Origin: Trachipleistophora hominis
Lineage: Eukaryota; Microsporidia; Pleistophoridae
NCBI GenBank assembly: GCA_000316135.1
Contig: JH994038.1
Coordinates: 72,949-100,224, forward strand
DNA: 27,276 nt
Reading direction: 5' to 3'
Position numbers and translations under genes: made by a program. Positions 222 through 25,507 of the stretch are shown here, one piece after another. Under the pieces are notes generated by a model. That model was given only the letters and a program-made list of their open reading frames with translations. It searched no databases and was not told the DNA's origin. Each line of letters opens with the position of its first letter. The first letter of the stretch is position 1.

Positions 222-295
222 CTAACTCTTCTAGTCCGTTGGAACCGAACATGGCAACCGGTCTTTGGTTCATGGATAAACCATCAGTTCCACGG
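222..295 (+). repeat. Dispersed two-hairpin element, copy 1
   Basis: Seen: ACATGGC at 249-255, 13 nt, then TTCATGG at 269-275, the signature of this element. Hairpin 1 is ACCG 244-247 with CGGT 259-262 around an 11-nt loop. Hairpin 2 is TGGTT 266-270 with AACCA 279-283 around the loop CATGGATA. An outer stem, CCGTTGGA 236-243 with TCCACGG 289-295 (one bulged T), closes the two hairpins into a three-way junction. The left flank CTAACTCTTCT is nearly identical to that of copy 3. It lies 70 nt upstream of the proteasome gene on the same strand, so it could be part of that promoter, but the other copies are not placed in this way. Function unknown. Confidence 0.7.
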
Positions 296-364: not shown

Positions 365-1096
365 ATGTCGTTTTTCAGAGAGATGCTCGTAACAGAAGAT
401 AATCCTTTTAAAATACAAGAAGTTGCAAACAAAGGACCGAAGAAACATTTGGATGTTGATGATTTATACGCCAACAACAGCGGTACAGTTTTAGCCTTCA
501 AACAGCAGGACTATGTCATAATAGCTGCCGATACGCGGCATTCCTCAGAAATGGGCATAAACTCTCGCAAGATGACCAAGATATTTGAATTTGACGGCTT
601 CATTTTTTCAGGCACGGGTTTCTACGCAGATTTGAACGAAGTGTATTTCCGTCTTCGATATGAGGTAGAGAGATACGAGAACGAGGTAGAAAAACGGATA
701 GGTATCAGCGCATTAGCTCACAAGCTGCTAAACATCCTCTACAGTCGCAGAGGAGGTCTTATATACTACGTGTTTAGCGTTCTAGTGGGAAAGGATGAAA
801 CAGGAGAGCCCGTTTTATATTCGTTTGATCCGATCGGTTCGTACGAACAGGTGATGTGTAAGTGCTATGGCAGTGCATCACCTATGATACAACCGTTGTT
901 GGACTCGACAATTATGAAATACAACCAAGAGAATGCGAGCTATCAAAGCTTGTGCATGGAGGAGAGTGTTGAATTGACCAAGAAAGCCTTTTTTGCGGCT
1001 GCTGAACGAGATGTCAACACCGGTGATTACTTGCAGATTGTTGTGTATAAAAGAGACGGTGTTAATGAAGAATTGGTTGATTTGAGGAAAGACTAA
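365..1096 (+). CDS. PRE7: 20S proteasome subunit beta type-6 (PSMB1/PRE7-like)
   Basis: A 243-residue structural beta subunit of the 20S proteasome core, the barrel that degrades ubiquitin-tagged proteins. Residues 1-39 form a propeptide-like leader. The beta fold starts at the NSGTVLAF segment (residues 38-45), followed by AADTR (54-58). The YSFDPIGSYEQ stretch (152-162) is the hallmark that points to beta-6 rather than another beta subunit, and the C-terminal EELVDLRKD resembles the family's usual tail. Beta-6 is a non-catalytic position in the ring, and the typical catalytic pattern after the threonine (T-D/T-T) is absent here, as expected. The start is supported by the C run at 358-363. 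An AATAAA at 1100-1105 lies 3 nt after the stop TAA (1094-1096), so the 3' untranslated region must be short. No intron is needed. Length is normal for the family. Confidence 0.93.
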   Translation: MSFFREMLVTEDNPFKIQEVANKGPKKHLDVDDLYANNSGTVLAFKQQDYVIIAADTRHSSEMGINSRKMTKIFEFDGFIFSGTGFYADLNEVYFRLRYEVERYENEVEKRIGISALAHKLLNILYSRRGGLIYYVFSVLVGKDETGEPVLYSFDPIGSYEQVMCKCYGSASPMIQPLLDSTIMKYNQENASYQSLCMEESVELTKKAFFAAAERDVNTGDYLQIVVYKRDGVNEELVDLRKD

Positions 1097-2595: not shown

Positions 2596-4176
2596 TTATC
2601 CTTGGTACGGACCTACACAGCTAACAATGTTTCGGAAACCAAACTTGGCATCGATCAGCGGAGTATTCTTCGTGTGATACACGGCCAGCATATTCTTAAA
2701 GTCCCACACTCTGAGAGACAGGTCTGCCCCACAAGACACGAAAACATTGCCAAAATAGCAGAATGAAACGGAGTAGACCGTTTTAGTGTGCCCTTTAAAC
2801 ACGTTTACCTTCTTCGATGTCATTATATCCCACAAAATGACTGTCCTGTCCTTTGATCCTGATAGCAGAAGCTTGCCATCGGGTGATACTGCTAAGGCTG
2901 TGACCGTATCCGTATGCCCTATAAAAACACGTACCAGCTCGGCTGATTCTATCTCGTGCATCCTTATACGATGATCACACGAGCCAAAAATGACATACTG
3001 CGAGTTTGGATGAAAAACGAGCGAAGAAACATCGCTGAGTGCCGAGGTGAAGAGACGTTCAGGAGAGAAACTGTCAATGTTAAATAAACTGACGGTCCGG
3101 TCAGCACCGCCCGAGCAAAACATCAAATCGTTATTAGAAATTGCGAGGGACCAGATAGGGAACGCACACGCCTTGTACGTGCTCACCAGACAGAATAGGT
3201 CAAGAGACCAGAGATAAACACGATCCATATCGCACGACAGAACGTATTTCTTCGAGTTGAAGAATTTTACGTTCAAAACACACGTGGTATGTCCGATCAA
3301 TCTGGTGCTCTTTCCAATGTCCTCGTAGAGATCCTCGTCCAGGTTCTTCAGCTTCATCAGGTCGGCCGTGTTTTTCAGCTTCTTGAGCGTGCCCTCAAGC
3401 GCATGGATCTCAAGAACTGAATCGCTGTAGCCAAGCGCAAGCAATTTGAGATCTTTGCTTATCTCTGCACAGCACACCCGTTCAAACGTATTGTTGACCG
3501 TATAACAGCAAACGGATGGAAGATTGTTCTTGTTGAGAGAGACCCGCTTACACAAATCCTTCAGATTTTCAATTTCTTGCTTGATAAACGATGACGAGGG
3601 CATGACCTTCTCTTTCTCCCTGTTTCTGTTCTTCAGTCCCAGAACAAACGATTCCAGGTGGTCGTATCGATACTGTTCGTCCTTAAGGATGGCCTCCTCA
3701 GTGTACGAACTGTATAAATTTGTATCAAGCGTTATGTTCTTGTTGATCTTCTCAGTAAGACCCTCAATTTCTTCGTTCTTCTTTATTCCCTGGTGTACCT
3801 TTATGTTCAGGTATTGGTTGACGAGCACCAAAATTTGTGTCATTTGGTTTCTTTCCAAGAAATTGATGAAAAGATCAAACGCGTACTTTCCCATCGAAAT
3901 GCTGTATTTATTCGTCCGGTACGCACTCACCAACGTATTTTCGTTGAGATGCTGTGGTGTACAGATACTCTCAAGTATCTGTAGTTCTTGGTTGTAGAAA
4001 TCATCCTTGTTGGCGTTGAAAAATTCTTTTGCTCCCTTTATGTCGTTGGCGAAGAGAAGATCAAGGTAAATGTGGATAAAGAGCGGGTAGAGTAGATTCA
4101 TTAAATCATTTCTGAATTGATCTAGGCTGTCCTCTATCCATGCTTTAAGCTTGGCGTATCCTTGATCGTCGATCAT
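2596..4176 (-). CDS. TAF5: TFIID subunit TAF5 (WD40 protein)
   Basis: A 526-residue WD40 protein, the TAF5 subunit of the general transcription factor TFIID (also shared with SAGA in fungi), acting in the nucleus at RNA polymerase II promoters. Residues 1-130 match the TAF5 N-terminal helical domain (NTD2), with recognisable segments YPLFIHIYLDL (30-40), CTPQHLNENTL (72-82) and NKYSISMGKYAFDLF (89-103). Residues 130-220 are a charged linker. The C-terminal half is a seven-bladed propeller: blades near 225-260, 293-325, 335-367, 378-409, 418-451, 461-493 and a short last blade 500-522. The GHTDTV/ILWD (420-450) and GHTKTV/RVWD (462-491) repeats are canonical. The LisH motif of animal TAF5 is missing and the protein ends soon after the last blade, so it is a shortened form, as is common in microsporidia. 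The start is fixed by CCCCC one base upstream. Confidence 0.93.
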   Translation of the reverse strand: MIDDQGYAKLKAWIEDSLDQFRNDLMNLLYPLFIHIYLDLLFANDIKGAKEFFNANKDDFYNQELQILESICTPQHLNENTLVSAYRTNKYSISMGKYAFDLFINFLERNQMTQILVLVNQYLNIKVHQGIKKNEEIEGLTEKINKNITLDTNLYSSYTEEAILKDEQYRYDHLESFVLGLKNRNREKEKVMPSSSFIKQEIENLKDLCKRVSLNKNNLPSVCCYTVNNTFERVCCAEISKDLKLLALGYSDSVLEIHALEGTLKKLKNTADLMKLKNLDEDLYEDIGKSTRLIGHTTCVLNVKFFNSKKYVLSCDMDRVYLWSLDLFCLVSTYKACAFPIWSLAISNNDLMFCSGGADRTVSLFNIDSFSPERLFTSALSDVSSLVFHPNSQYVIFGSCDHRIRMHEIESAELVRVFIGHTDTVTALAVSPDGKLLLSGSKDRTVILWDIMTSKKVNVFKGHTKTVYSVSFCYFGNVFVSCGADLSLRVWDFKNMLAVYHTKNTPLIDAKFGFRNIVSCVGPYQG

Positions 4177-5637: not shown

Positions 5638-5916
5638 ATGAATCAATACAGGGTGGTTTTATCGCTTCTTTCACAAAAAGATGCGCAATTGCACGATGTA
5701 ACAGACATAGACTTAGATTTTATAAACTTGATTGGCCAGATATCACCAGGGTCTGGACTGGTTGGAGACGTTTTCTACCCCAAAATACTTCTACAGAATA
5801 TGTCAATAGAATATGACTTTAAAATACCCGATTTCGTGCTATATAAACGCATTGCTGGTCATTCTTCCGTTTTTGAAGATAAAAATCGTTTTGATCGGGG
5901 CAACAAACCTTTGTGA
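5638..5916 (+). CDS. Unrecognised protein, N-terminal part (frameshifted gene)
   Basis: First part of a gene that runs to 6742 in two frames. It starts at an ATG placed 5 nt after a CCCC signal and reads 92 residues (MNQYRVVLSLLSQ...) before a TGA at 5914-5916. The total from 5638 to 6742 is 1,105 nt, that is 368 codons plus one base, so a single extra nucleotide explains the break. The crossing point must lie before 5914, and the G4 run at 5897-5900 or the T4 run at 5889-5892 are the natural suspects. It has no family resemblance I can name. The other reading, that this is an unrelated small ORF, is less likely because the start signal would then have no full gene behind it. Confidence 0.55.
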   Translation: MNQYRVVLSLLSQKDAQLHDVTDIDLDFINLIGQISPGSGLVGDVFYPKILLQNMSIEYDFKIPDFVLYKRIAGHSSVFEDKNRFDRGNKPL

Positions 5917-6742
5917 AAAGAATTTGGTTATCGAGAAAAAGGATGTAAGTGAATATTCGAAACGTGATGATAAAAAAATTCTTGAGGGTGAGCAAAAGAA
6001 AGCATCGAACAAGAGGGGATTTAAAAAGAATGATAATCAAAGTGATACTGTGAAAAAGCACGTGCAGCCGCCTATAGAATCAAATGATTGTTTTGATGTG
6101 TGCTTTATGAAGAAATGTGAGGATTTTGACAAGAGCATCGATTCGTTACCAATAAAACTAAGCGTAATGAAATTATTCGGGGCGGAAATACAACATAAGA
6201 TTCTCAGGAGAGGATTTAATAGCACAAAGGGCAAGTTAGAGTTGGTCAACACACAAATATTAGAAAGGTTTGAGAGTATAGAACTAACAGAAAATAACTG
6301 TACGAGAATAAACACCTTCATAGTTTCCTCTCATCTAAGCGATTTCTTGCCTAAAAGCATCAGATCAATAATCAAAAAAAATATACCGGATGCACGAATA
6401 GATATGGATAGAAATAAAGACAGTGGGACGGTTGGTCTGCAGGTTTTAATGCATTGCGAATATTTTTATTGTGAAACATACAGAATTAGCCGTGTTGAGG
6501 AGTGTTGCGAAAAATTGATGAAATATATTTTTGAGTGTATATTATCTGAGAATGTATTTGATGATAAGTTAATTGATCTTGTTTTTGTATGCATGAGCTT
6601 AGCAACTGGTGTATCACAGGTGAGAATACGTGGTTTAGAATCAATTCTTTGCCTGGTTAAGGCTTTTTATCCGGTTGAAGTAGTGGAGAAGGATGGTATT
6701 ACCAGTATTGTAGGTGCTGATTTTTTAAATATTTGGCAGTAG
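5813..6742 (+). CDS. Unrecognised protein, main part (frameshifted gene)
   Basis: Continuation of the gene starting at 5638, in the next frame; the in-frame ATG at 5813 is probably not a true start because the N-terminal part overlaps it in the upstream frame. After the likely crossing near 5890-5912 come about 45 residues rich in K/E/D/N (a disordered, basic stretch, roughly 5930-6070) and then a folded, mostly helical region to the end. The last 80 residues, with the segments ILSENVFDDKLIDLVFVCMS and LESILCLVKAFYPVEVVEK, read like helical-repeat (HEAT/ARM-type) hairpins; this is inference from pattern only. No transmembrane segment and no signal peptide is seen. Stop is TAG, with no AATAAA close by. 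Function not assigned. Confidence 0.65.
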   Translation: MTLKYPISCYINALLVILPFLKIKIVLIGATNLCEKNLVIEKKDVSEYSKRDDKKILEGEQKKASNKRGFKKNDNQSDTVKKHVQPPIESNDCFDVCFMKKCEDFDKSIDSLPIKLSVMKLFGAEIQHKILRRGFNSTKGKLELVNTQILERFESIELTENNCTRINTFIVSSHLSDFLPKSIRSIIKKNIPDARIDMDRNKDSGTVGLQVLMHCEYFYCETYRISRVEECCEKLMKYIFECILSENVFDDKLIDLVFVCMSLATGVSQVRIRGLESILCLVKAFYPVEVVEKDGITSIVGADFLNIWQ

Positions 6743-7998
6743 TACGGCATATTAATGAAAATCACGGATATATTAAAGATAAATGATCGGCGCGAATAAC
6801 GTTTAAGTCCAATATTTAAAACAAAGGCTGGGTTACATCTATTATACATCAATTAAAATACTTTAGTATCTTCTGATCATCATATCATGGTTAAAACCTT
6901 TTATTTTTATATGAGCTGAATGCGTTGTATGATAACAATGCAGATTTTCAATATAAATTTTAAATATGATTTGATAAATCTTATGGTGCTATATTTTATT
7001 TATAGATAATAATTTATTTATTTTAATGATAGTTATATAATCGTAACCTAATCGCGTTTCCCAAAAATTGCTTTTATTCACCACTTCACATACATTATAA
7101 AACATGTTCATCAGATCCGCTGAGACTAACCATGGCCACGGGTCATTAGTTCATGGAGAAACTAACGCTCTATCTAACATAACATTACGGTACGCGCTCT
7201 CGTCACGATAAAAAAATATATTGTAACCATAGTATTGACTTTAATACAAAAGTCATAGCTTAAATGATACTTCTCTCACGAGAGTACCCGAAAAACTTTT
7301 GTTTTAAAAAATCTTACCACTTAACACATAATTTTTGATTTCCATATGATTAATCGAAGTCACAAGTGTTTAAGTATAAATATAATATTCTGAACAAAAG
7401 TATGTAACTTTCTTTCTCTGAGCTGTTATATTCGCCAAAAACCTTTGTAACTAGTGGAATTATAAGATGATTAACTAAACCAATTATAGAGAGATTAAAA
7501 CATTATTCTCAGGAACAATATTACAGGAATAATTTATTTTATTCCTTTATTGGTCGACGATAAAGTGGTTTAAAAGTTAAAAAACGGGAATAAAGTAAAC
7601 TGTAAACAACTCACACATTTTTCTGTTTAAACGTGTTTTAGAAGTATAAAATGAAAAATATACAAAATTTATCTTTTCATACGGTTAAAAATGCTGTTCT
7701 CAAAATGCCGATATAAATTATTGATCTTTCAAGGAGTGATTGAAACGCTAATACAAGGAATTTGATTTATCAAATATGTTTTGGTTCCGTTGGATAAATA
7801 CTTAATCGGCATTTTCATGTTGGAGGCTAGTTTTGAACACTTAGAAAGGAATTTATGTTGAAATAGAACCAAACATTTCCTACAAAGTGGTGTTTGAAAT
7901 TTAAATGAAATTAAAATCGTATATTCGCGTAGTATTATGAGATATAATAGTAGGAATTATTATTTAATTGGTCCTATCGTATCCAACTGCTGCAACCG
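6743..7998. other. Non-coding AT-rich spacer
   Basis: About 1.25 kb between the 3' ends of the convergent gene at 5638 and paralogue A. It contains copy 2 of the two-hairpin element (7112-7170). Nothing else was recognised. Confidence 0.6.
7112..7170 (+). repeat. Dispersed two-hairpin element, copy 2
   Basis: CCATGGC 7130-7136, 13 nt, TTCATGG 7150-7156. Hairpin 2 is perfect: TTAGTT 7146-7151 with AACTAA 7160-7165 around CATGGAGA. Compared with copy 1, the second base of the shared core changes from G to A and its partner from C to T, so pairing is kept. Hairpin 1 is GACT 7124-7127 with GGTC 7141-7144. The outer stem of copy 1 is not clearly kept. No gene start is nearby, which argues against a promoter role. 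Confidence 0.7.
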
Positions 7999-10872
7999 CT
8001 AGTTGTTCAGGTCAATATCGTGCTGCCTTGGCACTATTTGTAGAACGTTCGAGGAGAAAGGACAAATTCTTATGTATTCCTCGGCGGAAATGAACACTAA
8101 ACTGCTGAGTGATTTCAGATCAATATATTTCGATAGCGGTTTCAAATAAACTTCGAATGCGTGGTTGTCCTTCGTGATTTTTGACGAAATGGTTATTTTT
8201 TTTTTAGTTTCAACAATTAACTTACACACTTGTACCTTTTTTGTGTCTAAAACCACCGACCGCGACCACGTCATCCTAACGTTAAAATGAACTTTGAGTA
8301 TTCGCAGAGAGGGCATCAGGCTACTTATGTTGTATATAAACGGTAGCGAAACAGTATCAACGACCAAAATTTTTAGCATGCCGAGTGTCAAATGATCGGA
8401 TAAATGGAAGTTTTTATAATCTGGTCGCCATTTCGGATCGTGGTTAAATGAATTTGAAATATCAAGCAACCTAAGATTTGGTGGTAAACTAGATAAAAAA
8501 CTGCTCGATACCTTTGGAACCATCACTTTTAGAATTTTCAGGTTACAAAACTCACTAAATCGTCTATAACAGCACTTTGTAATCACAATGGATTTAAACT
8601 CAAGCTTCTCGATAGAATATGTGATTTGGGAATTCAAAATAGCATTTACGATTTGGTTTACAGCGAAATTCACATCCCTATAAACGGAACGATGAATTCT
8701 TTTTGTTTTAGATGGAAACCGTTTCATTGAGATGGTTGAGCTTCTGTTATAACCTTTTACTTGTAGATAACTCCTCATTTCATCGTATATAACTTGCTCA
8801 GTCCCATCGAGGGATTCGTTCGTGTAGTTGCTTTCGAATTTCAAAATGCTTAGTTCTTTGAAAATAGGTAACAAGGATATAACAAAGTTGTAACATCGGC
8901 GAACATTACAAATTTCCAAGCTAGTAACATAGACATCACCAATAAAATTGATATTATCTAGTCCATCCGCTGCAAACCAAATTTTTATTCGATCAAAAAG
9001 CACAACTTTGGTGACATCAATCGTACAATTACATTCATAAATCTCAAGATCGGTACAATTATCATTTATGACCACTCGAGCCGAATTACAAGTGGTTATC
9101 TTGCACAAAGTAGCACACTTGTTTCTTTGTCCCAGTTCAATGCATGTATGTGTGCGGATATTGCACAAAAAAATATGATTTAATAGGATGTATGGGATTT
9201 GTTGAACTCGTATTTTCATATTGTCGTAGATGTAGAGTTCTGTACCTATATATGGTGTTAAATCCATCAGTCCCTCTGATTTTGTGATATCTATATGTTC
9301 ACTGTCCTCGTGAAGTATTAATTGAGAATTAGGAGATATCTGTACATATTCTAACGTTATTTGATCAATTCCTTGGTATAAACACACCATTCCTTCAATA
9401 TTCGCATGCCTGATTGTAAGAATTTTTGGTTGAAGATCGTCTCGAATATCGAACTCAAAAAACATTCTCTTATGTTTTTTTAGCACTATCATATTAAAAC
9501 ACTCCATACGCGGTAAATTAATTAATCCGCTTGTATTTTCAATAAAAATACGGTCGCATTCCTCGTTAAATAAAAATTTCATCGACTTTTTTATTGTTGA
9601 GTTTTTGATTTTAACCATTTTCACATGGTGAGGGAAGCTAAAGTCACTTTCGAACACAAAGTCGGCATACTGTAAATTTACTTTACATTTCGAGAAAAGA
9701 CCGATTGCTTCTAGTGATTGGTTTTCAAGCCTAACCTGCCTATTATCGATGTTTATAGGCATTGAATTGATAAAATCGGCGGTACATAAATCGTATTGCA
9801 CGGTGGATAAATTCTTCATAGCAAATAGAAGCGATGACGAAACCGGAAACGTGATTTCTTTGAATTCCAAAGTTAAATCTTTAACACGTTCACTGTTCAG
9901 GAATTCGCAGCGAGAAAGAAGAATGAGTTTCTGGGTGAATCTTTCATTATCTTCTGGAGTTTTCTTTGAGCTCATGGTGATATTAATCACGCGCACATTA
10001 AATGAAAATTTTTTTGGCCAAAAGCCCAATTTGTCCAACAAAATATATCCGTTATTCATCAAATAATTGTATGTTATTGTCAAATTTTTTATCAAAAACC
10101 CAAGAATTAGCTCGTTGAGATTAATGAAATAGCAAATATGTTCCGATAAATTATTTTTTTCGACAGTTTCGGCTATTTCACCGGTGCTATCCTTGATGCA
10201 AAACGCTATATACGAATTAGCTATTTCTCTGAAGCTATTCGCGGAACCACTTACATCGAACACAACCGTAGTAAGTAGCTTTATATCGTCAGAATACTTT
10301 TCTTTGCTCGTGTCATTGTCACATCGTTTTAACTCGTAGACTAAATCGGAGTTTTTTTGAAGAAATACGCATATTGCATATGCAATAATACTGACTTTGT
10401 CTTCCAAAGGAAAGAAATGAGTGATGATGAGACAAATTTCTTCCAATGTAAACTCAGGAACTTTTTTTTCTGAGGAATTAATTATTTTTTTAAACAAAGC
10501 TTTTGGAAGAGGAACATTAATAATCTCAAGTATTACCTCCTTATTATACCTTGTAGCATCAGTATAGTCATTGCGTTCATGCTCTCTGCTACGACAAAAT
10601 ATGTCAAAGACTGATATTCTATGGCCCACTGTTGCGCTGTCAGAAGTTTCTGAAGCAATGTCAAAGTTATTCGTGGAAACATGTTGACCAGCACAAGTTA
10701 ATGGCAGAAACATCTCGTCCACCGTCCTACACCTATTTAAAAAATTAGGAACACCCGTGTCTTCCAAAAAATCAACAATCATGTGTTCATTACGCTGTTC
10801 GCCGCTATCATTAACAAAAAACAACAAATATCTGGTTGTCAGTTCTACATACTTATGTAAATTGTAAAACAT
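7999..10872 (-). CDS. Large LRR-like family protein, paralogue A
   Basis: A 957-residue member of the three-gene family in this window. The frame stays open to an ATG at 10944, but the ATG at 10872 is preferred because its product (MFYNLHKYVELTTRYLLFF) aligns with the N-termini of B and C. Layout from 10872: a hydrophobic N-terminal helix; a conserved module near residues 115-180 (VPLPKALFKKI, FTLEEICLIITHF); a middle of irregular leucine/isoleucine-rich strands with three unit marks whose Cys (or Ser) codons lie at 9556, 9301 and 9055, 85 and 82 codons apart; and a C-terminal module with SLPPNLRLLDIS and YIDLKSLSSL. No catalytic motif and no convincing transmembrane helix. It is probably a protein-binding solenoid; role unknown. 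No C-run signal lies at either candidate start. Confidence 0.85.
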   Translation of the reverse strand: MFYNLHKYVELTTRYLLFFVNDSGEQRNEHMIVDFLEDTGVPNFLNRCRTVDEMFLPLTCAGQHVSTNNFDIASETSDSATVGHRISVFDIFCRSREHERNDYTDATRYNKEVILEIINVPLPKALFKKIINSSEKKVPEFTLEEICLIITHFFPLEDKVSIIAYAICVFLQKNSDLVYELKRCDNDTSKEKYSDDIKLLTTVVFDVSGSANSFREIANSYIAFCIKDSTGEIAETVEKNNLSEHICYFINLNELILGFLIKNLTITYNYLMNNGYILLDKLGFWPKKFSFNVRVINITMSSKKTPEDNERFTQKLILLSRCEFLNSERVKDLTLEFKEITFPVSSSLLFAMKNLSTVQYDLCTADFINSMPINIDNRQVRLENQSLEAIGLFSKCKVNLQYADFVFESDFSFPHHVKMVKIKNSTIKKSMKFLFNEECDRIFIENTSGLINLPRMECFNMIVLKKHKRMFFEFDIRDDLQPKILTIRHANIEGMVCLYQGIDQITLEYVQISPNSQLILHEDSEHIDITKSEGLMDLTPYIGTELYIYDNMKIRVQQIPYILLNHIFLCNIRTHTCIELGQRNKCATLCKITTCNSARVVINDNCTDLEIYECNCTIDVTKVVLFDRIKIWFAADGLDNINFIGDVYVTSLEICNVRRCYNFVISLLPIFKELSILKFESNYTNESLDGTEQVIYDEMRSYLQVKGYNRSSTISMKRFPSKTKRIHRSVYRDVNFAVNQIVNAILNSQITYSIEKLEFKSIVITKCCYRRFSEFCNLKILKVMVPKVSSSFLSSLPPNLRLLDISNSFNHDPKWRPDYKNFHLSDHLTLGMLKILVVDTVSLPFIYNISSLMPSLRILKVHFNVRMTWSRSVVLDTKKVQVCKLIVETKKKITISSKITKDNHAFEVYLKPLSKYIDLKSLSSLVFISAEEYIRICPFSSNVLQIVPRQHDIDLNN

Positions 10873-10944
10873 AGAACTTGATTTCAATGTTCTTTTATTT
10901 ATAATAAAAATATCGTACGTATTGGTCAAATTTTCATTTACCAT

Positions 10945-12732
10945 TTAATCACGCAGATAATTAATTACTGTAGTATTCTGGCTAATTAAATACAAGAATG
11001 TGTGATAAGGCATTAGTGAAAAACACTAGACGTTTTACTTCCTTATTATTTACGTGGTACCGTGTCTGTTGGCGTTAAATTTTGCAATCCGGTGAGAAGC
11101 GGGCAGTATTGCTGATTTGAACTTATGACTGAATTGCTAACGTGTATTTATTCTTTAAATATTTATATTTCTACTTCTTTCTACTAATTTTTTTATACCT
11201 GTTACCTATTAAAAAGTAGTAACGGAGCGTGAAATACGTGCCTAAAGTGTTTCAGCATTTTTATTGCTGTAGTGACTGCCAAATAGAAATTTTTTTGAGT
11301 ACAATTTCAATTGTAATGAATACTTGTAAATTATAACCATACATAATAGTATTTTAAACACATTATATACTTTATCGGGATGATTGCTCGATGAAGTAAA
11401 AATGTTTGGTATTTTCTACTGTTTTAGATGCTTAATACCACTAATATCCGAAAATACAATGTTCTATCAATCAGTTTGTTACCATTTTATTTCAGAGGTA
11501 AAATATTGTATCATTCTTTTTGTTTCTAGGTATTAATATAATAAAAGTATAGTGTTCTGACGAAATAAACCAGAACAATGATGAGAACATTTGTCTGAAT
11601 AGGTCATATGCTATAATATGGAACACAAAATTACTATATTTAATAAAAGATGCCGGAGTATTGTAAAAAATAAGGATAAAACACGTGGCTTTGTACAAAA
11701 AATGATGATAAAACAAACCGAGAAATAAGATATAACAATAAACACGTATTTGTGCAGAAAGATATAATAGGCATACAAGTGAGAAAAATTAAGTAACAAA
11801 ACTCTGTTAGTAAAAGAGCCTATCGTTTAAAATATTGAATTTTTTAAAGAAAGCTTATTTAATTGAACTTACGTATATATCAAAACGTTCAGACCAACTT
11901 CACTGACGCATTAAACATCTATCCTAGATTAAATATTTTTAATCTATAATTATTGTTAATTATATACCATTTTGACATATTATGGTGCTAGTTCGATGAA
12001 AAAGAATTATTTATAACTCTATGGCTTACAATTAGAGTATTATTCAAATAGGTTAAACATGGATTATATTAGAAGCAAGATATTTGTACTTAAATTACGT
12101 TTTGTGTATTTCTGGAATAAATAATGATTCTTATATTATGAACCAAAGGCAAAACAGACCATGGTAGATGCTAACGCACCTGGAAGAGCATGTTAAATGG
12201 ATGTTGAGATGAATGTTGAAAGTTAATTCATATGTTTTTTCAAAAAAAAATGATTTTTTATAATTTTTTATTAGAATAAATTCGTTCAGTCCAACTGTAT
12301 TTATCTTGATCTCTTTCGTTTTTATAAAAATCAAAGCACATTAACCCGTTCATCGTTACAGCGTCATCCGACAAACTCGTTATATGTCAATAGCATTGAG
12401 ATATCATCCGATATAGATTGTATACGATTAAGATTACTTAGATATATCATGTAAACCAAGATAAGATTTGATTTATAACCTCATCAGGATTACGACTAGC
12501 ACTCGAAGTTTATCACCAATCTCGTAGTCTGATATAAAAAACGTGAGTCGATCTTATAGTAGATGAGAACATATGTTTGTGCACTTGAAATATAGTATAA
12601 AAAGTATTGTTTGATATAAATAAGTACTAAGAATATCAAATACCCTCAATAAAACTCTTATTTTACCTGTTTCAGAAACAAACCGCAACATTTTTACATA
12701 ATTTTATTTATTTTTTTTAAATATTTTTTTCG
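10945..12732. other. Non-coding AT-rich spacer
   Basis: About 1.8 kb upstream of paralogue A and of the SRP RNA. ORFs here are short and of AT-driven composition (F, I, Y, N, K rich) and none has a start or poly(A) signal. No repeat was recognised. Confidence 0.6.
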
Positions 12733-12918
12733 AACCCTCTGATTGACCTAAGGATGACGTCCGGGTTGTCGTGAGGGCGCGCGTCAGGTCTGCTGTGGCC
12801 TATCTGCTCTGCCTTAAGGCGGGTCAGATGGCCTTTAAAGAGGGCAATGCGTGAGGACGGTAACGTAGCAGCGAAAACCGAAGCAGCAGTTAGTCTGGCG
12901 CCGCAGACCTTGCTTTTT
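12733..12918 (+). ncRNA. Signal recognition particle RNA (SRP RNA)
   Basis: RNA scaffold of the particle that brings ribosomes making secreted proteins to the ER. It is a roughly 180-nt GC-rich island in AT-rich spacer. Domain IV (helix 8), the SRP54 site, is clear: stem ACG 12857-12859 with CGT 12864-12866 and GTAA tetraloop; symmetric loop GAGG 12853-12856 opposite AGCA 12867-12870; stem CGT 12850-12852 with GCG 12871-12873; then the A-rich asymmetric-loop strand AAAAC 12874-12878, as in animal SRP RNA. Immediately upstream is a long hairpin (12797-12833: GGCC/GGCC, ATCTG/CAGAT, GCC-TTAA-GGC) in the position of helix 6. AGGTCTGC 12786-12793 pairs perfectly with GCAGACCT 12903-12910 as helix 5. 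T5 at 12914-12918 is a polymerase III terminator. The 5' end (Alu domain) is uncertain: CCCTC 12735-12739 can pair with GAGGG 12773-12777, but I could not fit the usual UGUAA turn. Confidence 0.85.
12914..12918 (+). terminator. RNA polymerase III terminator of SRP RNA
   Basis: TTTTT directly after the last helix-5 strand, followed downstream by further T5 and T7 runs (12925-12944) that could act as back-up terminators. Confidence 0.65.
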
Positions 12919-14933: not shown

Positions 14934-17756
14934 ATGTGGTCAAATTTGTACAACTATATTGATGTGTGCGTCAAATATATTTTTCTATTCGAGAACGAAA
15001 ATAATTCTGTAAGTGAGGATTTTCTGATTGCGGGGCATCCAGCAGATTTACAAATGCCTGGTTTATGGGAAACACAGAAATATATAGAAGAAATACAATC
15101 ATTACCATACATTGCTGAAAATTACCTTTATGTAAGTCGGAAACTGCTCGGCATTCTGGTTGCCTTTGATCGAACGCATTACTATGGTCATATTGCAGGT
15201 ATCAAGAAACTTATTTATCAGACACATCGTGACGTGATTGAAAAGAACACAAATATTCAATTTAAAGTTATTAAAGTTCCTATGTCCTTTGCATTATATC
15301 ATAAAATCGTGAACTTATCATCAGCCCATAAATACTTCAATAACGATGAAATCTGTACAATATTGCAACATTATACACAATTTGATAAGCCTATAATGAT
15401 ACAGCTTGTAAAAGTTATATGTGAATATCTCTTAAACAACAAAGAAATACTATATGAAATACAGAAATATGGGGAACATCCTAGTAGCTATCAATGTACG
15501 TCTCAAATCATGGGTCATTTAATTTCTATATTTGGTACAAAAGAGACCTTAACCCAGTTTAAGAGACTTGTAAGTTCCCATATCACATTATTTCTGACCG
15601 ATGAAAAATACTCTACAGTGAAATTATGTGGACAATCCTTATCAGATGAAAATTATCGCTTTGAGATAGATCAAGATGGTTTTGCACTAGTTTTTCTTTT
15701 TGATGAAGTGAGAATAGAATGTGAATGGCTGATGAATAATGAGGACGTATTAGATACATTATTTGGTAATAATATGATCTCTTCCCCATATATGGTAATC
15801 CTATACGGTGATGGAAAAATATTTAATGATCTTAAAGTAATCGATATTTTTAAAGGAATTTCGAGCATAATATCAACTAGTAAGTTTCTTAAAGGGGAAA
15901 ATGTCAGTCAATTAATTCTGAAATTTGAAATTTCCTATGATGATGTTGATATATCATGCATTACAGATATAGATGCTTTAACGATTGCCCAATACATATA
16001 TTTTCTACCCGATTTTACAAAATCATTACCAGAATACGTTAAAATGGAAGCTGATATTGATATGCACCTCTTTATCACGAAACTTGATCATATTCCCAAA
16101 AATTTGACGAGAATTTTATGTGAAAGAATAGAATGCGATAATGACATAATAATACCAGATCATATTGAGAAACTTGATATTAAAAAATGTGTTCTTGCCC
16201 AGAATAAAACACTTACAGTGGGCAAGAATTGCAAAAGTATTGGAATAGCGGATATGCAGGGAAAATTTGTAATTCCAGAATTTATAGAATGTGAAATCGG
16301 ATTATATGGTATGTCTGGAACACTGTGTTTTAACTTTGGCATGAATGGAAGAAACGATGAAAGATCGTTGGTATTGTGTAGAGTGACAGTTTATATGACA
16401 GTTAATATCAAAGAGAACATGGAGAGAATATACTTTGATGATGTGATCGTAACATCTGAATCGATCGTTGTATTTAACGATAAATGCAAGAATTTGCATA
16501 TAACAAACTCAAAAGGTAGGTTTGATTTAAGACCGTATATTGGAATAGTGCAAATTTTTAACCACAAAATGAAAATAGAAGTAGTAACTAGAAAACAATC
16601 TACTTTTAATCTCGCCAGAATTACATTTAATAATTGGTGTTTTACACAGACGGCAAAGCTGTCAAATATTTACGACTACGTCCGATTAATACATGTATCT
16701 ATGGCAGAAAATACAGAGATAATTTTAAACAAAGCATGTAAAGTACTATTAGTTCATAATTGTGAAGTTACTATCAATTTTCAGGAGGTCGAATATCTCG
16801 AAAGTTTAGATATATGGCTTTCTATGGATAAAAAAAATAACATCAGACTAGTTGGTTTGAAACAAGTCAATCATCTTTGCTTTTTTGGTATGTGTTGTGA
16901 CACGAATTTAATAATTGCTATACTGGCGAGTATCGAGAATATGCAACATGTGAAATTTGACCATAGCTGTATCGTGATGAATACGCAGTTTTTTAATCGA
17001 TGTTATGATGGTTTAATGACGTTCTTAACATCTAATGGAAGGTTTGAAAACAATCCAGACTTATTATCAAAATTTCCCGCAATACAGGATGAGGTGCCAA
17101 AAGTGTTTGTCCTTGAAATGCTTGGTATTATGGTTAATTATATTCTGAGAAATGTTTTAGATCAGGAAATAATGGATACTGTTTCTATGTTAGAATTTGA
17201 GCATATTGCCATCGATTCAGATAATTGTAGGTTGCTCAGAAAATTGAAGAGATTGAAAATTCTTCGAATACGCACGAAAACTATCACTAATGAATTCCTT
17301 TATAACCTACCGCCAAATATCGAATTGTTGGATATAACCGGTTTATTCTTTGATGAAATAAACCGGACAGAAAAGTACGTGATAAAACCATCGGTCATCA
17401 TCCAGCCATATAAAAGGCTTAAAATGTTGATAATAGATGTCGATTTTTTATACAATATACGCTCCCTTTCAGTTTTGATGCCTTTTCTTGAAGTAATTGA
17501 AATACAATATTCTCCATTAATCAAAACTAATTCTCTAATGCAATGGAAAAAAATAAAGGTGAACGAATTATTTATTCACAGTGATAATTTTGGGCGAGAT
17601 TATCGACGTGAGTTTAAATTAAAAGATGATGAAATGCTTTGGTTTGTGGAACAACTTAAATTTTATATCGAATTTGAATCACTCCAATGTGTTGCATCTG
17701 TTTTATTAGACGAATGTACATTTTTGGATCCTATAACTCTTGAAGTTGTTAAATAA
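14934..17756 (+). CDS. Large LRR-like family protein, paralogue B
   Basis: A 940-residue protein, the cleanest member of the family. Start at ATG 14934 gives MWSNLYNYIDVCVKYIFLF, alignable with A. The conserved module (VPMSFALYHKIVNLSS ... FNNDEICTILQHYTQFDK) lies near residues 115-155. The middle carries three unit marks with Cys codons at 16230, 16485 and 16737, that is 85 and 84 codons apart: GKNCKSIGIADMQGKFVIPEF-type and NDKCKNLHITNSKGRFDLRPY-type segments. The C-terminal module contains YNLPPNIELLDITG and FYIEFESLQC. The stop TAA (17754-17756) is inside an AATAAA (17752-17757), so the transcript end is probably very close. The hydrophobic first 20 residues are weakly signal-peptide-like, but the conserved W/Y/D pattern fits a packed helix equally well. 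No enzymatic motif. Confidence 0.88.
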   Translation: MWSNLYNYIDVCVKYIFLFENENNSVSEDFLIAGHPADLQMPGLWETQKYIEEIQSLPYIAENYLYVSRKLLGILVAFDRTHYYGHIAGIKKLIYQTHRDVIEKNTNIQFKVIKVPMSFALYHKIVNLSSAHKYFNNDEICTILQHYTQFDKPIMIQLVKVICEYLLNNKEILYEIQKYGEHPSSYQCTSQIMGHLISIFGTKETLTQFKRLVSSHITLFLTDEKYSTVKLCGQSLSDENYRFEIDQDGFALVFLFDEVRIECEWLMNNEDVLDTLFGNNMISSPYMVILYGDGKIFNDLKVIDIFKGISSIISTSKFLKGENVSQLILKFEISYDDVDISCITDIDALTIAQYIYFLPDFTKSLPEYVKMEADIDMHLFITKLDHIPKNLTRILCERIECDNDIIIPDHIEKLDIKKCVLAQNKTLTVGKNCKSIGIADMQGKFVIPEFIECEIGLYGMSGTLCFNFGMNGRNDERSLVLCRVTVYMTVNIKENMERIYFDDVIVTSESIVVFNDKCKNLHITNSKGRFDLRPYIGIVQIFNHKMKIEVVTRKQSTFNLARITFNNWCFTQTAKLSNIYDYVRLIHVSMAENTEIILNKACKVLLVHNCEVTINFQEVEYLESLDIWLSMDKKNNIRLVGLKQVNHLCFFGMCCDTNLIIAILASIENMQHVKFDHSCIVMNTQFFNRCYDGLMTFLTSNGRFENNPDLLSKFPAIQDEVPKVFVLEMLGIMVNYILRNVLDQEIMDTVSMLEFEHIAIDSDNCRLLRKLKRLKILRIRTKTITNEFLYNLPPNIELLDITGLFFDEINRTEKYVIKPSVIIQPYKRLKMLIIDVDFLYNIRSLSVLMPFLEVIEIQYSPLIKTNSLMQWKKIKVNELFIHSDNFGRDYRREFKLKDDEMLWFVEQLKFYIEFESLQCVASVLLDECTFLDPITLEVVK

Positions 17757-18806: not shown

Positions 18807-19373
18807 GTTTATTAAAATGATTTATCACATGACCAATTTTTTGTTGGTCGATCTTAGCAAACTATAAGAGTATGTTTGGCCAAATGATGCCTGTGATGAA
18901 GATAATCTAAGGATATTTCTCGAATAAAAGAACGAGTTGTTGTTGAATTATGATATATATGGTTTAAAAACAAAGTCTCTTATTTTTCAAAACTGATGAA
19001 TGACAAAAATTCCTGTTAAATTAAGATTATATATGATCTATGGATGAAAAAAGGCACGACAACAATTATATTTTGTGAGCAAGTCAAGAAAATATAAAAC
19101 CAGATTCAAGCATTCATAGATAGGTGTTTATAAATGAATTGTTAGCGTCTAATAAAAGACGATTCTATGCAGAATAAAAACATTGGAAATGTTTAAAACA
19201 GGTTTTAACATACTGTTTTACAATTTGATAATACTATATTTATGTTTTAATCACAATAAATAAGCGATGCTTATTCTAATGTTGGTGTGGTGAAATGATA
19301 TTTGTCATTATCTAAAAATCAAAAGAATTAATCTTATTGAATATACACTAATCTGATTTTCCGTTTTACAAAG

Positions 19374-20674: not shown

Positions 20675-21262
20675 ATGAATTTGAACTCGTTACAATCAAC
20701 TGTTTTAGCTTCGGTTTTTGTCATAGTATTTAATCCAAAGTATGAAGAAAAAGTAATTGGTGAGAATGATTATTTAGTGGTCGATGATACGACAGATATT
20801 TGGTTTAAACCAGAAGACCTGTTTATTTATGGGGAGTGGAACGGTAACAAATCAGTGGAACAAATATGTTACAATATTTTTGGAAGTGAGATTGCTGTAA
20901 AACCGAAATCAGAATCCCGCGGTGATAATATGAATGATAACGGAAAAGACTCAACGAACAAAACTGATGTTGATTTACGAAATAATGTTGCTGCTTACAA
21001 ATATCAGACGATTACACTGCCAATTAGTAAAGCTCTGTATGAAAAGATATCCAATTTATCATTTATATCTGATACAAAGTTCACATTTGGTGAAATATGT
21101 GATCTTCTTACAATGTCTCCACGATTATTCGACAAAGAAGCTCTTATTATGTTCAACGTCTTCAAAAATCTTGTTAATGATAGAAATTTGTTCTTGAAAC
21201 TGAATCAGTTTTTTCGGAAAATATCAGTATGCAAGAAAAGGCACATCTATTCAATGGATTGA
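20675..21262 (+). CDS. Large LRR-like family protein, paralogue C, part 1 of 3
   Basis: N-terminal part of one 4,500-nt gene (20675-25174, exactly 1,500 codons with stop) split by two opposite frameshifts. The start MNLNSLQSTVLASVFVIVF corresponds to the N-terminal helix of A and B and is the most hydrophobic of the three. The conserved module (ITLPISKALYEKISNLS ... FTFGEICDLLTM) lies near residues 110-150. The family match ends at about residue 180 (FLKLNQFF), exactly at a T6 run (21209-21214). Beyond this the frame gives unrelated residues to the stop at 21262, while the family-like reading continues in the -1 frame from 21214. The sequence between residues 70 and 108 is rich in N, D, S, K and is probably a flexible linker. 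Confidence 0.75.
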   Translation: MNLNSLQSTVLASVFVIVFNPKYEEKVIGENDYLVVDDTTDIWFKPEDLFIYGEWNGNKSVEQICYNIFGSEIAVKPKSESRGDNMNDNGKDSTNKTDVDLRNNVAAYKYQTITLPISKALYEKISNLSFISDTKFTFGEICDLLTMSPRLFDKEALIMFNVFKNLVNDRNLFLKLNQFFRKISVCKKRHIYSMD

Positions 21263-22197
21263 ACTGGTATGAAAATGCCTTTGTGTTGTTCTGTGAAAAC
21301 GGATATTTTATATTGAAGGATCAACTTAACAATGTAATTGTGACTGCGAATGATTATGAACAACAATATAAAATTCCCATCTATGTTGAACCCGCAAACG
21401 AATTATTCTTCCCGATTCTGGTTGATTATTTGGCTGTTGATTATAGATTACTACAAAATTCATGTATAGATTTATCAATTTTTTACTACACAAAATCTGG
21501 TTTAACACTTGATATTGATTTTACTGGATTTTTCGCTGAAAAAGAAAAGGCAAAATTGTCTGTAAATGTAATTAGAAATCGGATACGATCCAAACATTTG
21601 AGTGATTTCTATGAATTGTTCAATAATCCACTTTTATTGTTAGAATGTGTTAATAAGATTATCCTACGCATATCATTTGTATCATATACTTTTGATTTTA
21701 ATTTTATAATGACAAAGAAAATTCAGTTACATTGTGACAATTGTATTTTTAGTGAGAGAATATGCTTCCCCATTAACCTGACAGCATTAACCATCAGTGC
21801 CTCGGCAATCAATACAAAACTGGAGCTACCTCAACGTTTAGATACACTTCAAATAGAGAATTGTTACATAAATACGGAAGGCTCATTACTCATAAACGAG
21901 AATTGCAACGAAATTACATTCTATGATGTATATGGCAGCATTAATTTTCCATTTAATTGGAGTTTACAGGCTATCAAATTCCATGAGTTGTTTGTAAGAA
22001 CAAATTTAAAAAGGAACCAAGATAGTTCTTTTGAGATTTTCCATATTTCTGATGTTGAAATCATTGATAATATAGAAATCGGACACAATATTCAAACTCT
22101 CTATCTAGAAAGTGTACAGGTTGATGAAAGCATTACACTTAAAATACATGGATCATGCAAAAACATTGTACTGAAAAATTGTGCTGGATGCTTTTGA
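21229..22197 (+). CDS. Large LRR-like family protein, paralogue C, part 2 of 3
   Basis: Second part, in frame -1 relative to part 1; the ATG at 21229 is unlikely to be a real start because family-like residues extend back to the T6 run at 21214. It contains two unit marks, Cys codons at 21904 and 22156 (84 codons apart): NENCNEITFYDVYGSINF and GSCKNIVLKNCAGCF. It ends with TGA (22195-22197) at a T4 run (22192-22195). Dropping one T restores the expected G-x-F-D ending of the unit and leads into part 3. Confidence 0.75.
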   Translation: MQEKAHLFNGLNWYENAFVLFCENGYFILKDQLNNVIVTANDYEQQYKIPIYVEPANELFFPILVDYLAVDYRLLQNSCIDLSIFYYTKSGLTLDIDFTGFFAEKEKAKLSVNVIRNRIRSKHLSDFYELFNNPLLLLECVNKIILRISFVSYTFDFNFIMTKKIQLHCDNCIFSERICFPINLTALTISASAINTKLELPQRLDTLQIENCYINTEGSLLINENCNEITFYDVYGSINFPFNWSLQAIKFHELFVRTNLKRNQDSSFEIFHISDVEIIDNIEIGHNIQTLYLESVQVDESITLKIHGSCKNIVLKNCAGCF

Positions 22198-25174
22198 TCT
22201 AACAGACTTTGCAGAGTGGTTGAAACTGAAATTTACAAAAGAACGGAGCAGTTTTAATTTGACAAGTAAAAAGGAAAGAAATACAAGCAATAAATCTATA
22301 AAAAGTATCGACTTTGATGTATATATGGATAAGAACACGGAATTTAATGTTTTTGGATTGATTATTCCTAACGATAAGTTATGTTCTCAAATTGATAATA
22401 ATCAAAACATGGAAGGACAGTATTATATCAGTACTCCCTTAGAACTTCTTTTTCTTTCCTATATCAAAGTAATATCTAAATTTAATCCTTGCTACAATCT
22501 TAACTTGCGTCTCTTTATTAAAGAAGAAAATAGTGAATTGACCGCAAAAAATATTAATATTTGCCGAAACGTTTCAATTAATGGCATACAGAAAATATTA
22601 TTAACCCGTGTAAGAATTGCGGACGACCAAGTCGTAAAAATTACTTCTGAATATAACAGTCTGATACTCGAATATTGCACTGGTCGGTTTATTGTTCCGG
22701 GGATACAAGTCGGAGTAAAAAAATATATAAACCTACAAAACACCACTTTTATTCAATTTTATAGGATAGAAGAAGATATTTATAGTTGCAAAATGACGGG
22801 AATTAATTTTGAAGACAAACTATTGGTTTCACATAAAATAAGAATAGCTCAATTAGAGAATTCTGTGTTATATGAGGATATCGGTCTTGAATTCAAGTAT
22901 GGATGTGAGATTTTACACCTATTCGACACCAAAGGTGTGATTATTTCACCCGATAATAACTTTAAGAAAATAATATTAAGTTCTTATTATCAGAATTTTC
23001 CGGTTTACTACCTATCATATCCTGTGTACGAAATCATAATTTCATCTTGCACGATCAATCATCAAATTTTAATTTTTACTGATTCTACGAAGAGGATACG
23101 GCTATATAGCGTCCAACTGACAGGACATTCGATGGTTGCTATAGATCATGAATGTGAGAAAATTGCCATCTGGAAGACTACTGGTCGCTTTGTTATCTCA
23201 AATATCATAAAGACATCACCATTGCGCCAAGCGATCCTAAACCTACGTAACGGGGTTTTCATTTTTGGAAGCAACTTTTCTAAAACACAATGCAGTTTGT
23301 TATTAGAACACGTTGTAATCAAGAGACGCACAATTGTACGAGAAAATGTACATGTATTAAATTTAATCTCTGTTGTAATACGCAGGCGAGCTGTATTGAA
23401 AATAAACGATGACTGCGAAGTTTTATTGATCGATAGTTGCAAAGGTAACATTGATTTCTCTGGATGCACTAATTTGAGGTCTCTTACTATAAAAAACCAC
23501 AAGTTTATTTACCATAAAGGTATTTACGACAATCTTCTTTCGTTGCATCTTGAAAATGTGAATATAAATACGACACTTAGACTGGGAGGGAATATCAAAA
23601 ATGTGAAATTAGTGGGTGTAACGACGAGGTTGTTTAAATCAGTACAGATTGATCGCAATTGCGAAATGGTACATGTGCGTAATTTTGTTGGAAGTTTAGA
23701 TATACCGGATTTATTCATTTATTCTGGTAAAATGTTCACACGAAGAATGATAACTATTGCTTACGAAAGGATGTCTGATACATTCGGTGGTGTAATGTTT
23801 TTTAATGACATTTATTTAAAAAATGACTATGAAATTCCAAGTAATGTAGAATCTTTAATTCTGCGAAATTTTATGACAAATGAAAACGCTAGACTAAAGA
23901 TAAATGAATCATGTAAATATCTAAAATTGAACGTTTACCAGGGTTACATTGATGTATCTAAAATGAAAAGTATAAAAAAAGTAGCCTTTCTAAAGTATTT
24001 GCCTATTTTTGGAGATAATTGCTGGGAATTTTCTGACCAATGTAAATACCCGGTTAATAAAATAGGTAAAAAGAAGATAAACTTGCCAATCAATATCGAC
24101 AATGTAATAATAGAACGAGTGAATATCCAATCGAATTATTCACTGGTAGTAAATGAGAATTGTCAGAATGTCGCTATAATTTTCTCAGAAGGAAATTTTG
24201 ATCTATCTAGGATAAAAAAGTTGGCAAGTTTAAAATTATTAATCGAGAAACAAGGCCTTATTAACATTCAATTTCCTGATTTAAGTAATGTTACAAATCT
24301 GGAGGTATCATTTGATAGCAATGAGGAATATTTTAATTTATTGTTATCGAAATGTATTAACGCTAAGAAATTAGTTTTATATAACGTGGTATGTGAGTTA
24401 CATGATTGGATAGAGAATCAAAGTTTGTTAGGTTATAAAGAGGAAATGACACCGTACGAACTAAGTGAACTGAAATCGATAGTTGGGGCCGAAAGTCGAG
24501 CTTATCAATGTCGATTATCCTATGATTTGCACAGAAATTTTATAACCCATTCCAGGCCTATTTTTGATTACAATAGGCAAGTAATTATAAGAGATTTGAG
24601 TATAATAGCATTTTCTATTGATAAAGAAAGTTTAAAGCAACTAAAACGATTTTTCATGTTAACGAGGCTATCTATTGTAACGCGAACAATATTTGCTGGT
24701 TTATTTGACAGTCTACCGTTCAGCCTAAATGATTTTTCGTTGATGTTGATTCCATGCCATGTAACTGTTGATCTCGGTATTTATGCCGCTGAAGACATAG
24801 ATTCGAAAAAAAAGAATACAAAAAATATAAACCTGGTAAATTTAAGATTGCACGGACTTTTTATCGTAAAGATGGAGCAGTTTCTATCATTTCCTGATAA
24901 AGTAGATGTGTTGGAGGTCATGCCTTTGGCGATGCTTAGCGATAAAGAGATACAAGTTCGTAAAAAGATGTGGGTCAAAAAGTTAATTATCATGCAAATG
25001 AACAGTAGAACACGAGAAATAATTCGTAGTGATTATGCATTAGAAGAATATTATAATCATCTGCTGAATGTGTTGTCACAATATATTGATTTCAGTTATT
25101 TAGAAGAAATCAAAATTTTAGACCAAGATACTGAAAAATTAGTTGATCCTCGAGATTACAGCACCAATCGATGA
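22181..25174 (+). CDS. Large LRR-like family protein, paralogue C, part 3 of 3
   Basis: Third and largest part, in the same frame as part 1, 997 codons open from the ATG at 22181, which is again an internal Met rather than a start. It carries seven unit marks at codons starting 22652 (Tyr in place of Cys), 22904, 23153, 23414, 23660, 23912 and 24161, spaced 84, 83, 87, 82, 84 and 83 codons. Typical marks are NDDCEVLLIDSCKGNIDF, NESCKYLKLNVYQGYIDV and NENCQNVAIIFSEGNFDL. Between 22156 and 22652 one unit mark is missing, and the gap is twice the period. The C-terminal module is present (DSLPFSLNDFSL; YIDFSYLEEIKILDQ), so the gene is complete apart from the two single-base shifts. A start at 22181 as an independent gene is possible but would lack the N-terminal module. 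Confidence 0.8.
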   Translation: MLDAFDLTDFAEWLKLKFTKERSSFNLTSKKERNTSNKSIKSIDFDVYMDKNTEFNVFGLIIPNDKLCSQIDNNQNMEGQYYISTPLELLFLSYIKVISKFNPCYNLNLRLFIKEENSELTAKNINICRNVSINGIQKILLTRVRIADDQVVKITSEYNSLILEYCTGRFIVPGIQVGVKKYINLQNTTFIQFYRIEEDIYSCKMTGINFEDKLLVSHKIRIAQLENSVLYEDIGLEFKYGCEILHLFDTKGVIISPDNNFKKIILSSYYQNFPVYYLSYPVYEIIISSCTINHQILIFTDSTKRIRLYSVQLTGHSMVAIDHECEKIAIWKTTGRFVISNIIKTSPLRQAILNLRNGVFIFGSNFSKTQCSLLLEHVVIKRRTIVRENVHVLNLISVVIRRRAVLKINDDCEVLLIDSCKGNIDFSGCTNLRSLTIKNHKFIYHKGIYDNLLSLHLENVNINTTLRLGGNIKNVKLVGVTTRLFKSVQIDRNCEMVHVRNFVGSLDIPDLFIYSGKMFTRRMITIAYERMSDTFGGVMFFNDIYLKNDYEIPSNVESLILRNFMTNENARLKINESCKYLKLNVYQGYIDVSKMKSIKKVAFLKYLPIFGDNCWEFSDQCKYPVNKIGKKKINLPINIDNVIIERVNIQSNYSLVVNENCQNVAIIFSEGNFDLSRIKKLASLKLLIEKQGLINIQFPDLSNVTNLEVSFDSNEEYFNLLLSKCINAKKLVLYNVVCELHDWIENQSLLGYKEEMTPYELSELKSIVGAESRAYQCRLSYDLHRNFITHSRPIFDYNRQVIIRDLSIIAFSIDKESLKQLKRFFMLTRLSIVTRTIFAGLFDSLPFSLNDFSLMLIPCHVTVDLGIYAAEDIDSKKKNTKNINLVNLRLHGLFIVKMEQFLSFPDKVDVLEVMPLAMLSDKEIQVRKKMWVKKLIIMQMNSRTREIIRSDYALEEYYNHLLNVLSQYIDFSYLEEIKILDQDTEKLVDPRDYSTNR

Positions 25175-25394: not shown

Positions 25395-25459
25395 AGCGAA
25401 AAAAACCATGAACTGAAGGCCGATGGCCATGGACGGCCTCAGCGGACCAGAAGAGTGAG
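25395..25459 (-). repeat. Dispersed two-hairpin element, copy 3
   Basis: On the minus strand: CCATGGC (25432-25426), 13 nt, TTCATGG (25412-25406). Hairpin 1 is the strongest of all copies, GGCCG (25438-25434) with CGGCC (25422-25418) around an 11-nt loop. Hairpin 2 is altered: TCAG and CTGA can pair around a longer T-rich loop. The left flank CTCACTCTTCTGGTCCG matches copy 1 (CTAACTCTTCTAGTCCG) at 15 of 17 positions, so homology extends beyond the core. Confidence 0.7.
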
Positions 25460-25507
25460 TTTAATCGAATGTTGTGTTGCTAAGTTATAATTAAACAGAC
25501 TTTTAGT

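Follow-up and report, generated by a model that had tools for sequence, protein, structure and literature searches.

A Dispersed Repeat of Trachipleistophora hominis Consists of Short, Poly(A)-Tailed Retroposons with the Same 3′ End as a LINE

Introduction

Some SINEs share the 3′ end of their partner LINE; they are short and poly(A)-tailed, and they carry target-site duplications. Most SINEs form independent lineages, and their heads come from RNA genes. Microsporidia, the parasites to which Trachipleistophora hominis belongs, are known for small genomes. The T. hominis repeat described here resembles the SINEs that share a partner's 3′ end in being short and poly(A)-tailed, in having duplications, and in matching the 3′ end of a LINE of the same genome. 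It differs from those SINEs in that the short copy corresponds over its whole length to the LINE 3′ end, no separate head having been found, and in that short and LINE copies are intermingled in the phylogeny of class A (one of four classes of the repeat, A to D).

Short non-autonomous retroposons with defined 5′ ends have been described elsewhere. The accessible part of one report presents R2/R1 SIDEs as internal deletions that keep the 5′ ribozyme (PMC3414825). The present repeat likewise appears as a short non-autonomous derivative of an R2-type element and has a precisely defined 5′ end, but only the 3′ end is kept here, and an HDV-like fold is unsupported. In trypanosomatid L1Tc-ingi elements, the available text places the HDV-like ribozyme Pr77/L1TcRz at the 5′ end of both the LINE and its short forms (PMC4035085). 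As with Pr77, one short conserved domain is common to long and short retroposons and forms the 5′ end of the short ones, whereas in T. hominis this domain lies in the LINE 3′ UTR.

Among microsporidia, expanded and frameshifted non-LTR elements are reported from T. hominis itself, and the accessible sections of that account describe no short form or 3′ UTR structure (PMC3486916). Transcripts of relatives of these elements are mentioned for Spraguea lophii in the portion available (PMC3749934). The repeat table of Nosema bombycis contains a SINE category (28,669 bp, 0.18%) and also lists Dong-R4 LINEs (PMC3614468), a microsporidian SINE and LINE as in the present case when compared by table entry alone; since this category already exists, SINEs in microsporidia are not new as such. 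Within the accessible parts of the literature, no description was found of the unit, its fixed start or its covarying stem. LINE/SINE pairs are known; a short form that recurs with a single fixed start is an unusual variant of them. A short form arising repeatedly from a LINE 3′ UTR at one base would show the birth of a SINE from its LINE.

Copies and Extent of the Repeat

The window, that is, the whole stretch of DNA analyzed (27,276 nucleotides of contig JH994038.1), had been described in a first-pass annotation as containing three clear copies and one weak copy of a dispersed element. A sequence check found the underlying motif at all three main positions and at 27039-27065. Across the 5,508,218-base (5.51 Mb) genome, 33 occurrences of the motif were counted (14 on the forward and 19 on the reverse strand), against 0 of the reversed pattern, which bears out the proposal of a dispersed mobile family with dozens of copies. 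The sample consisted of 29 loci around motif matches outside the window and 27 around further matches of a 149-nt query; at least 44 matches of this query were listed, a lower bound, as the best 40 of 142 candidates were scored. The loci examined besides the window amount to about 0.26 Mb, with partial overlap. The spacing of exactly 13 nt that had been given for the motif was imposed by the search pattern, and class C and D copies have 2 nt more between the motifs.

Self-BLAST of the loci revealed one fixed and one variable edge. The homologous unit is about 94 nt long, plus a tail, and both the strand and the borders first assigned to it had to be revised: it is longer and reads on the opposite strand, at 182-275 (−), 7068-7156 (−) and 25406-25501 (+), with nhmmer edges being approximate. 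Copies in transcript sense typically span CCATGAACC to AATTAAACTAACTTTTAATAAAAA. In the original orientation the fixed edge is TTTTTTTATTAAAAGTTAGTTTAATTATC, which corresponds to a poly(A) tail on the other strand.

Copy 1, a class A short copy in unrelated flanking sequence (182-275, −; nhmmer E 3.9e-23), has its RNA 5′ end at 275 and an A-rich, degenerate tail just below 182; it lies about 90 nt upstream of the start codon of a proteasome gene. Copy 2 (7068-7156, −; E 7.9e-16) is a diverged class A copy with its RNA 5′ end at 7156, and copy 3 (25406-25501, +; E 7.1e-23) is a class A short copy with an A-rich tail after 25501. A covariance model scored these three at 68.1, 55.9 and 64.9 bits, values that are high by construction because all three belonged to its 29 training sequences. 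The weak fourth copy, absent from the training set, reached 17.5 bits (E 0.013) at 27039-27088 (+) and is probably a decayed copy; the three main places in the annotation stand as copies, and the fourth only as this probable remnant. Three further copies had been missed: a class D copy at 12138-12225 (+; nhmmer E 7.7e-4), a copy cut inside the unit with only the 3′ half left at 1251-1296 (−; E 8.2e-5, model 51-96), and a partial copy at 18845-18907 (+; E 7.8e-6, model 25-87). The window copies look like dead remnants. Elsewhere in the genome, at L024:800-1130, a class A copy is nested in the core of a second class A copy, with a poly(A) tail at the junction. The 24-nt core had no match in viral contigs, a search from which near relatives may be missing.

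Tails, Target-Site Duplications and the Search for a Borrowed Head

The repeats are old copies of short, poly(A)-tailed retroposons, transcribed opposite to the strand first annotated. A poly(A)-type 3′ tail is present on the RNA strand at the fixed edge, degenerate in window copies 1 and 2. Three loci (L009, L017 and L020) are bounded by perfect direct repeats of 15, 26 and 14 nt, respectively, which end exactly at the first C. A significant duplication (p ≤ 0.01 and score ≥ 8) was found in 9 of 78 copies tested, most copies being without a detectable one. Four of these nine stop exactly where the element begins and one stops at +1; those of window copy 1 and L027 stop short of the first base by 4 and 15 nt, respectively, and the remaining two belong to copies cut inside the unit. 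In copy 1, the duplication on the RNA 5′ side (280-290) is an 11-nt direct repeat that stops 4 nt before the element and is 91% identical to its diverged 11-nt partner on the tail side (162-172). No clear target-site duplication was found for copy 2 (p 0.645), and no significant one for copy 3 (p 0.42).

A MITE, or a repeat bound by protein at the DNA level, would also be short, non-coding and dispersed over both strands in spacers, as these copies are. Such an origin is nevertheless extremely improbable: the copies have poly(A) tails and direct duplications of 14-26 nt, a LINE body lies upstream in 27 of 58 copies, and no terminal inverted repeats occur at the element ends in the four copies inspected (L009, L017, L020 and window copy 1). 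The A/T-rich inverted pairs seen in L009 and L017, one in each, involve host flank.

A head borrowed from an RNA gene was also sought. The tRNA search returned a single tRNA across 29 loci, and as it sits outside the unit, a tRNA-derived head was rejected. No Rfam family matched within the unit up to E 1, matches outside it being a below-threshold S15 leader and, at another place in the window, an SRP RNA. A and B boxes of a pol III promoter were judged by eye alone, and none was convincing. A conserved small open reading frame on the RNA strand was likewise rejected, as the frame, inspected by eye, is not kept between classes.

The LINE Partner

The unit of about 94 nt is also the 3′ end of a LINE with broken remains of an R2-like reverse transcriptase. 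When the flanks of 58 copies were compared, 27 were joined to one and the same LINE-A 3′ body, 30 had unrelated flanks (a few of them doubtful, e.g., L044 and L007_922m) and 1 was intermediate. Conversely, a 90-nt piece of the LINE-A body gave 26 matches, and at least 23 of them adjoin unit matches, the other three being C96:19964, C97 and C15. The genome contains nine matches to the reverse transcriptase family RVT_1. Six of these, at four places, lie upstream of units in the same sense: two on C111, one on C107, one on C12 and two on C21, both of the latter below the curated cut-off. Reading frames are broken, with stops inside several RVT_1 matches. Both reverse transcriptase pieces that were compared with solved structures match RVT_1 in Pfam; one has R2 as its best structural match (E 2.6e-9, with named LINE-1 chains at 2.2e-5), and the second gave a chance match only, so that one of the two pieces tested matched a reverse transcriptase structure. 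No APE endonuclease (PF03372) was found in the genome.

Two features of the LINE copies lie close to the unit. A GC-rich inverted stretch (GUGCGC...GCGCAC) ends 9 nt upstream of it, and about 60-80 nt upstream, LINE-A bodies contain a small hairpin, GTTGC-GGTT-GCAAC versus GCTGC-GGTA-GCAGC, which seems by eye to covary. A separate locus, L070 (C108:46500-53500), holds the best RVT_1 match together with frames that by eye resemble an LTR retrotransposon (integrase-like and RNase H-like pieces), and is unrelated to the unit as far as seen.

The evidence leans towards the element being a SINE-like retroposon derived from the last ~94 nt (plus tail) of a microsporidian LINE, with short RNAs starting at CCAUGAAC as its templates. 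The unit would serve as the 3′ RNA domain on which the LINE machinery initiates target-primed reverse transcription. RNAs with the 5′ end CCAUGAAC would be cut out of the LINE 3′ UTR, or started within it; reverse transcription would run to the end of these RNAs, and the products would be inserted as short copies. Candidate origins of this 5′ end are cleavage by a ribozyme, processing by a nuclease and an internal promoter.

A Fixed Start

Because CCATGAA was part of the pattern that chose the first loci, starts were counted only in copies not so chosen, outside the window and not joined to a LINE. This left 32 of 35 listed copies, after omission of two search-pattern seeds (L013:1027 and L002:1057) and the deletion derivative L044; six window matches had been excluded beforehand. 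Half of the short copies (16/32) start at model nt 1-4 (CCATGAAC), and the other 16 start at nt 6-47, a clustering that departs from a uniform spread with p 1.2e-9. A discrete 5′ end is therefore present in the family, the other half of the short copies being cut inside the unit.

The same starts could be explained without any short RNA if reverse transcription of the full LINE RNA by the LINE enzyme often halts at a particular site, such as the one before the GC-rich stretch, the short copies being 5′-truncated LINEs with a hot spot. Ordinary truncation does occur, as the 16 of 32 starts at model nt 6-47 indicate, and the inverted stretch is close by. Despite the 9 nt that separate this stretch from the unit, however, the ends of five good duplications fall at 0 or +1, and class C and D copies share the start with no LINE body seen. 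In L009, L017 and L020 the junctions are exact, which fits run-off at the end of an RNA better than a stop before the GC-rich stretch, and premature stopping on the full-length RNA is regarded as rather unlikely.

Repeated Origin of the Short Form in Class A

The relationship between short and LINE-joined copies was examined by building a tree from 47 units of class A, of which 26 are LINE-joined and 21 short, with the junction omitted; 11 of the 58 copies were dropped, namely five of class C or D, the L052 chimera, L007_922m, L044, L034_4726p, L054_3372m and L014. The two forms are intermixed, with 15 changes on the tree against a shuffled mean of 15.6 (225 of 500 shuffles as low), and a single clade of short copies is rejected (p-AU 8.8e-7). 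Starred branches are few, 5 of 44, and force at least 4 changes. Since short and LINE-joined copies are intermixed and the one-clade tree is rejected, the class A short form arose several times; as judged from these sequences, repeated origin is established for class A only. In this class, no source lineage of its own, such as a SINE would have, was seen, the short copies being mixed with LINE copies. Congruence between body and unit was low (r 0.17-0.18, p 0.13-0.15), a test without power, because two halves of the body itself give a mutual r of −0.10.

The remaining classes bear on another explanation, in which a SINE superfamily with source genes of its own (classes A, C and D) existed and LINE A and LINE B each captured the unit at their 3′ end. 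Outside the window, all 7 copies of classes C and D are short, and all six class B loci are LINE-joined, to a second, unrelated LINE body that carries the core at the same boundary. Two unrelated bodies with the unit at one boundary would be expected from capture, as would the locus L052 (C7:11259-16259), where at about 2062 (−) a LINE-A body and a class B unit form a chimera joined near the unit start. However, the class A short and LINE-joined copies are not separate lineages, and the unit contains no tRNA gene and no Rfam family. Capture from an independent SINE is accordingly held to be improbable, and derivation of the short copies from the LINE 3′ end is preferred.

A Stem Covarying Between Classes

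The first-pass annotation had proposed selection on RNA structure, and this was right in general, through a stem that it did not name. This stem, H2, has the consensus GGTCC-CAGC-GGACC in class A, AGCCC-TAGC-GGGCC in class B, GGCGC-TCAGC-GCGCC in class C and GGTGC-TAAC-GCACC in class D, with single-copy variants GGTGC/GCACC in class C and GGTAC/GTACC in class D. In the window, copy 1 has H2 at 233-246 (−; GGTTC-CAAC-GGACT), with five of five pairs including two G-U. Four of five pairs form in copy 2 (7114-7127, −; AGTCT-CAGC-GGATC) and copy 3 (25435-25448, +; GGCCT-CAGC-GGACC), both positions being taken from the model, and also in the class D copy, within 12138-12225 (+; GATGC-TAAC-GCACC).

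Pairing was tested in 78 copies (A 55, B 7, C 11 and D 5); 1 of 86 copies failed to parse, and of the other 85, seven misparsed or indel rows were omitted. In these copies, 82.6% of cells are paired versus 72.3% after shuffling, and two-sided changes number 38 versus 13.6. None of 2000 shuffles reaches either value, and 4 of 2000 do so when shuffling is confined to classes; the shuffles keep relatedness in, and a small number of class-level events underlies the two-sided changes. With all 85 rows, at most 0.4% of shuffles score as high for each of the five pairs. H2 covaries between classes, with the evidence coming from the diverged classes B, C and D; in class A alone (28 distinct copies) no H2 covariation exceeded the shuffles.

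The stems originally proposed fared differently. The covariation read from three class A copies has no counterpart in class A as a whole, where 28 distinct copies give no signal beyond shuffles. For hairpin 1, RNA-sense pairing in these 28 copies is 89.3% of cells, reached by 172 of 500 shuffles, and its covariation score is reached by 96 of 500. The hairpin 2 arms AACCA (279-283) and AACTA (7160-7164) fall in host flank, beyond the ends of the element at 275 and 7156, and the copy 1 arm overlaps the target-site duplication at 280-290. Stem positions that vary without keeping their pairing had been named in advance as evidence against the structure; such variation was found for hairpin 2 and not for H2. 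A kissing contact between two CATG loops is contradicted as well, one of the two being the RNA 5′ terminus rather than a loop.

Other stems gave less. An inner stem, GGCC/GGCC, is matched by 48 of 2000 shuffles. Two candidates were set aside: H1alt, a non-overlapping relative of hairpin 1 (74 of 2000 shuffles as high, all classes), and an outer stem ACC/GGU (1890 of 2000). RNAalifold on 49 MAFFT-aligned copies did not predict H2, returning only H1alt at −1.87 kcal/mol. Folding energies are mostly unremarkable, with z from +0.90 to −2.58 and −0.68 for the LINE 3′ region.

A ribozyme of HDV type, as in R2 and L1Tc, would account for the fixed start by self-cleavage just 5′ of CCAUGAAC. The copies begin where such a ribozyme would cut, and the strand order P1-P2-P3-P4 can be drawn. 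Against this, P1 shows no covariation (95 of 2000 shuffles as high) and has A-C as its third pair in 9 of the 11 copies of class C, P2 is about equal to the reversed control, no catalytic C was found by eye, and Rfam gives no match up to E 1. An HDV-like fold is therefore considered very improbable.

For a SINE-like retroposon templated by short RNAs, the shared start and the covarying hairpin together hint at a hitherto undescribed signal that sets the start. A more specific form of this idea, put forward tentatively and itself unlikely, is that a new kind of RNA-processing signal, perhaps a self-cleaving ribozyme with an undescribed fold, resides in the LINE 3′ UTR and sets its last ~94 nt free as a mobile RNA that begins at CCAUGAAC. 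If so, every LINE lineage would generate a SINE-like parasite of its own anew, and exchange of LINE bodies and 3′ units could take place at that boundary, as L052 suggests.

Other Features of the Window

Besides the repeats, the window contains a Metazoa_SRP match at 12786-12894 (+; 45.1 bits against a gathering score of 70, E 1.6e-8), which is probably an SRP RNA gene. A frame at 5813-6742 (+) has a sub-threshold match to RNA 3′-phosphate cyclase, and a WD40 protein with a TFIID_NTD2 domain (TAF5-like) is encoded at 2596-4176 (−). Large proteins at 7999-10944 (−), 14934-17756 (+) and 20675-25174 (+), comprising 940-997 aa plus shorter frames, are alike by eye and leucine-rich-repeat-like; the one tested had no Pfam match. 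A leucine-rich-repeat family is reported for the T. hominis genome in the accessible part of its description (PMC3486916). The gene at 365-1096 (+), downstream of copy 1, encodes a proteasome beta subunit that matches unnamed proteins at up to 84%; its named matches are all from microsporidia, the closest of them being Pseudoloma neurophilia (51%).
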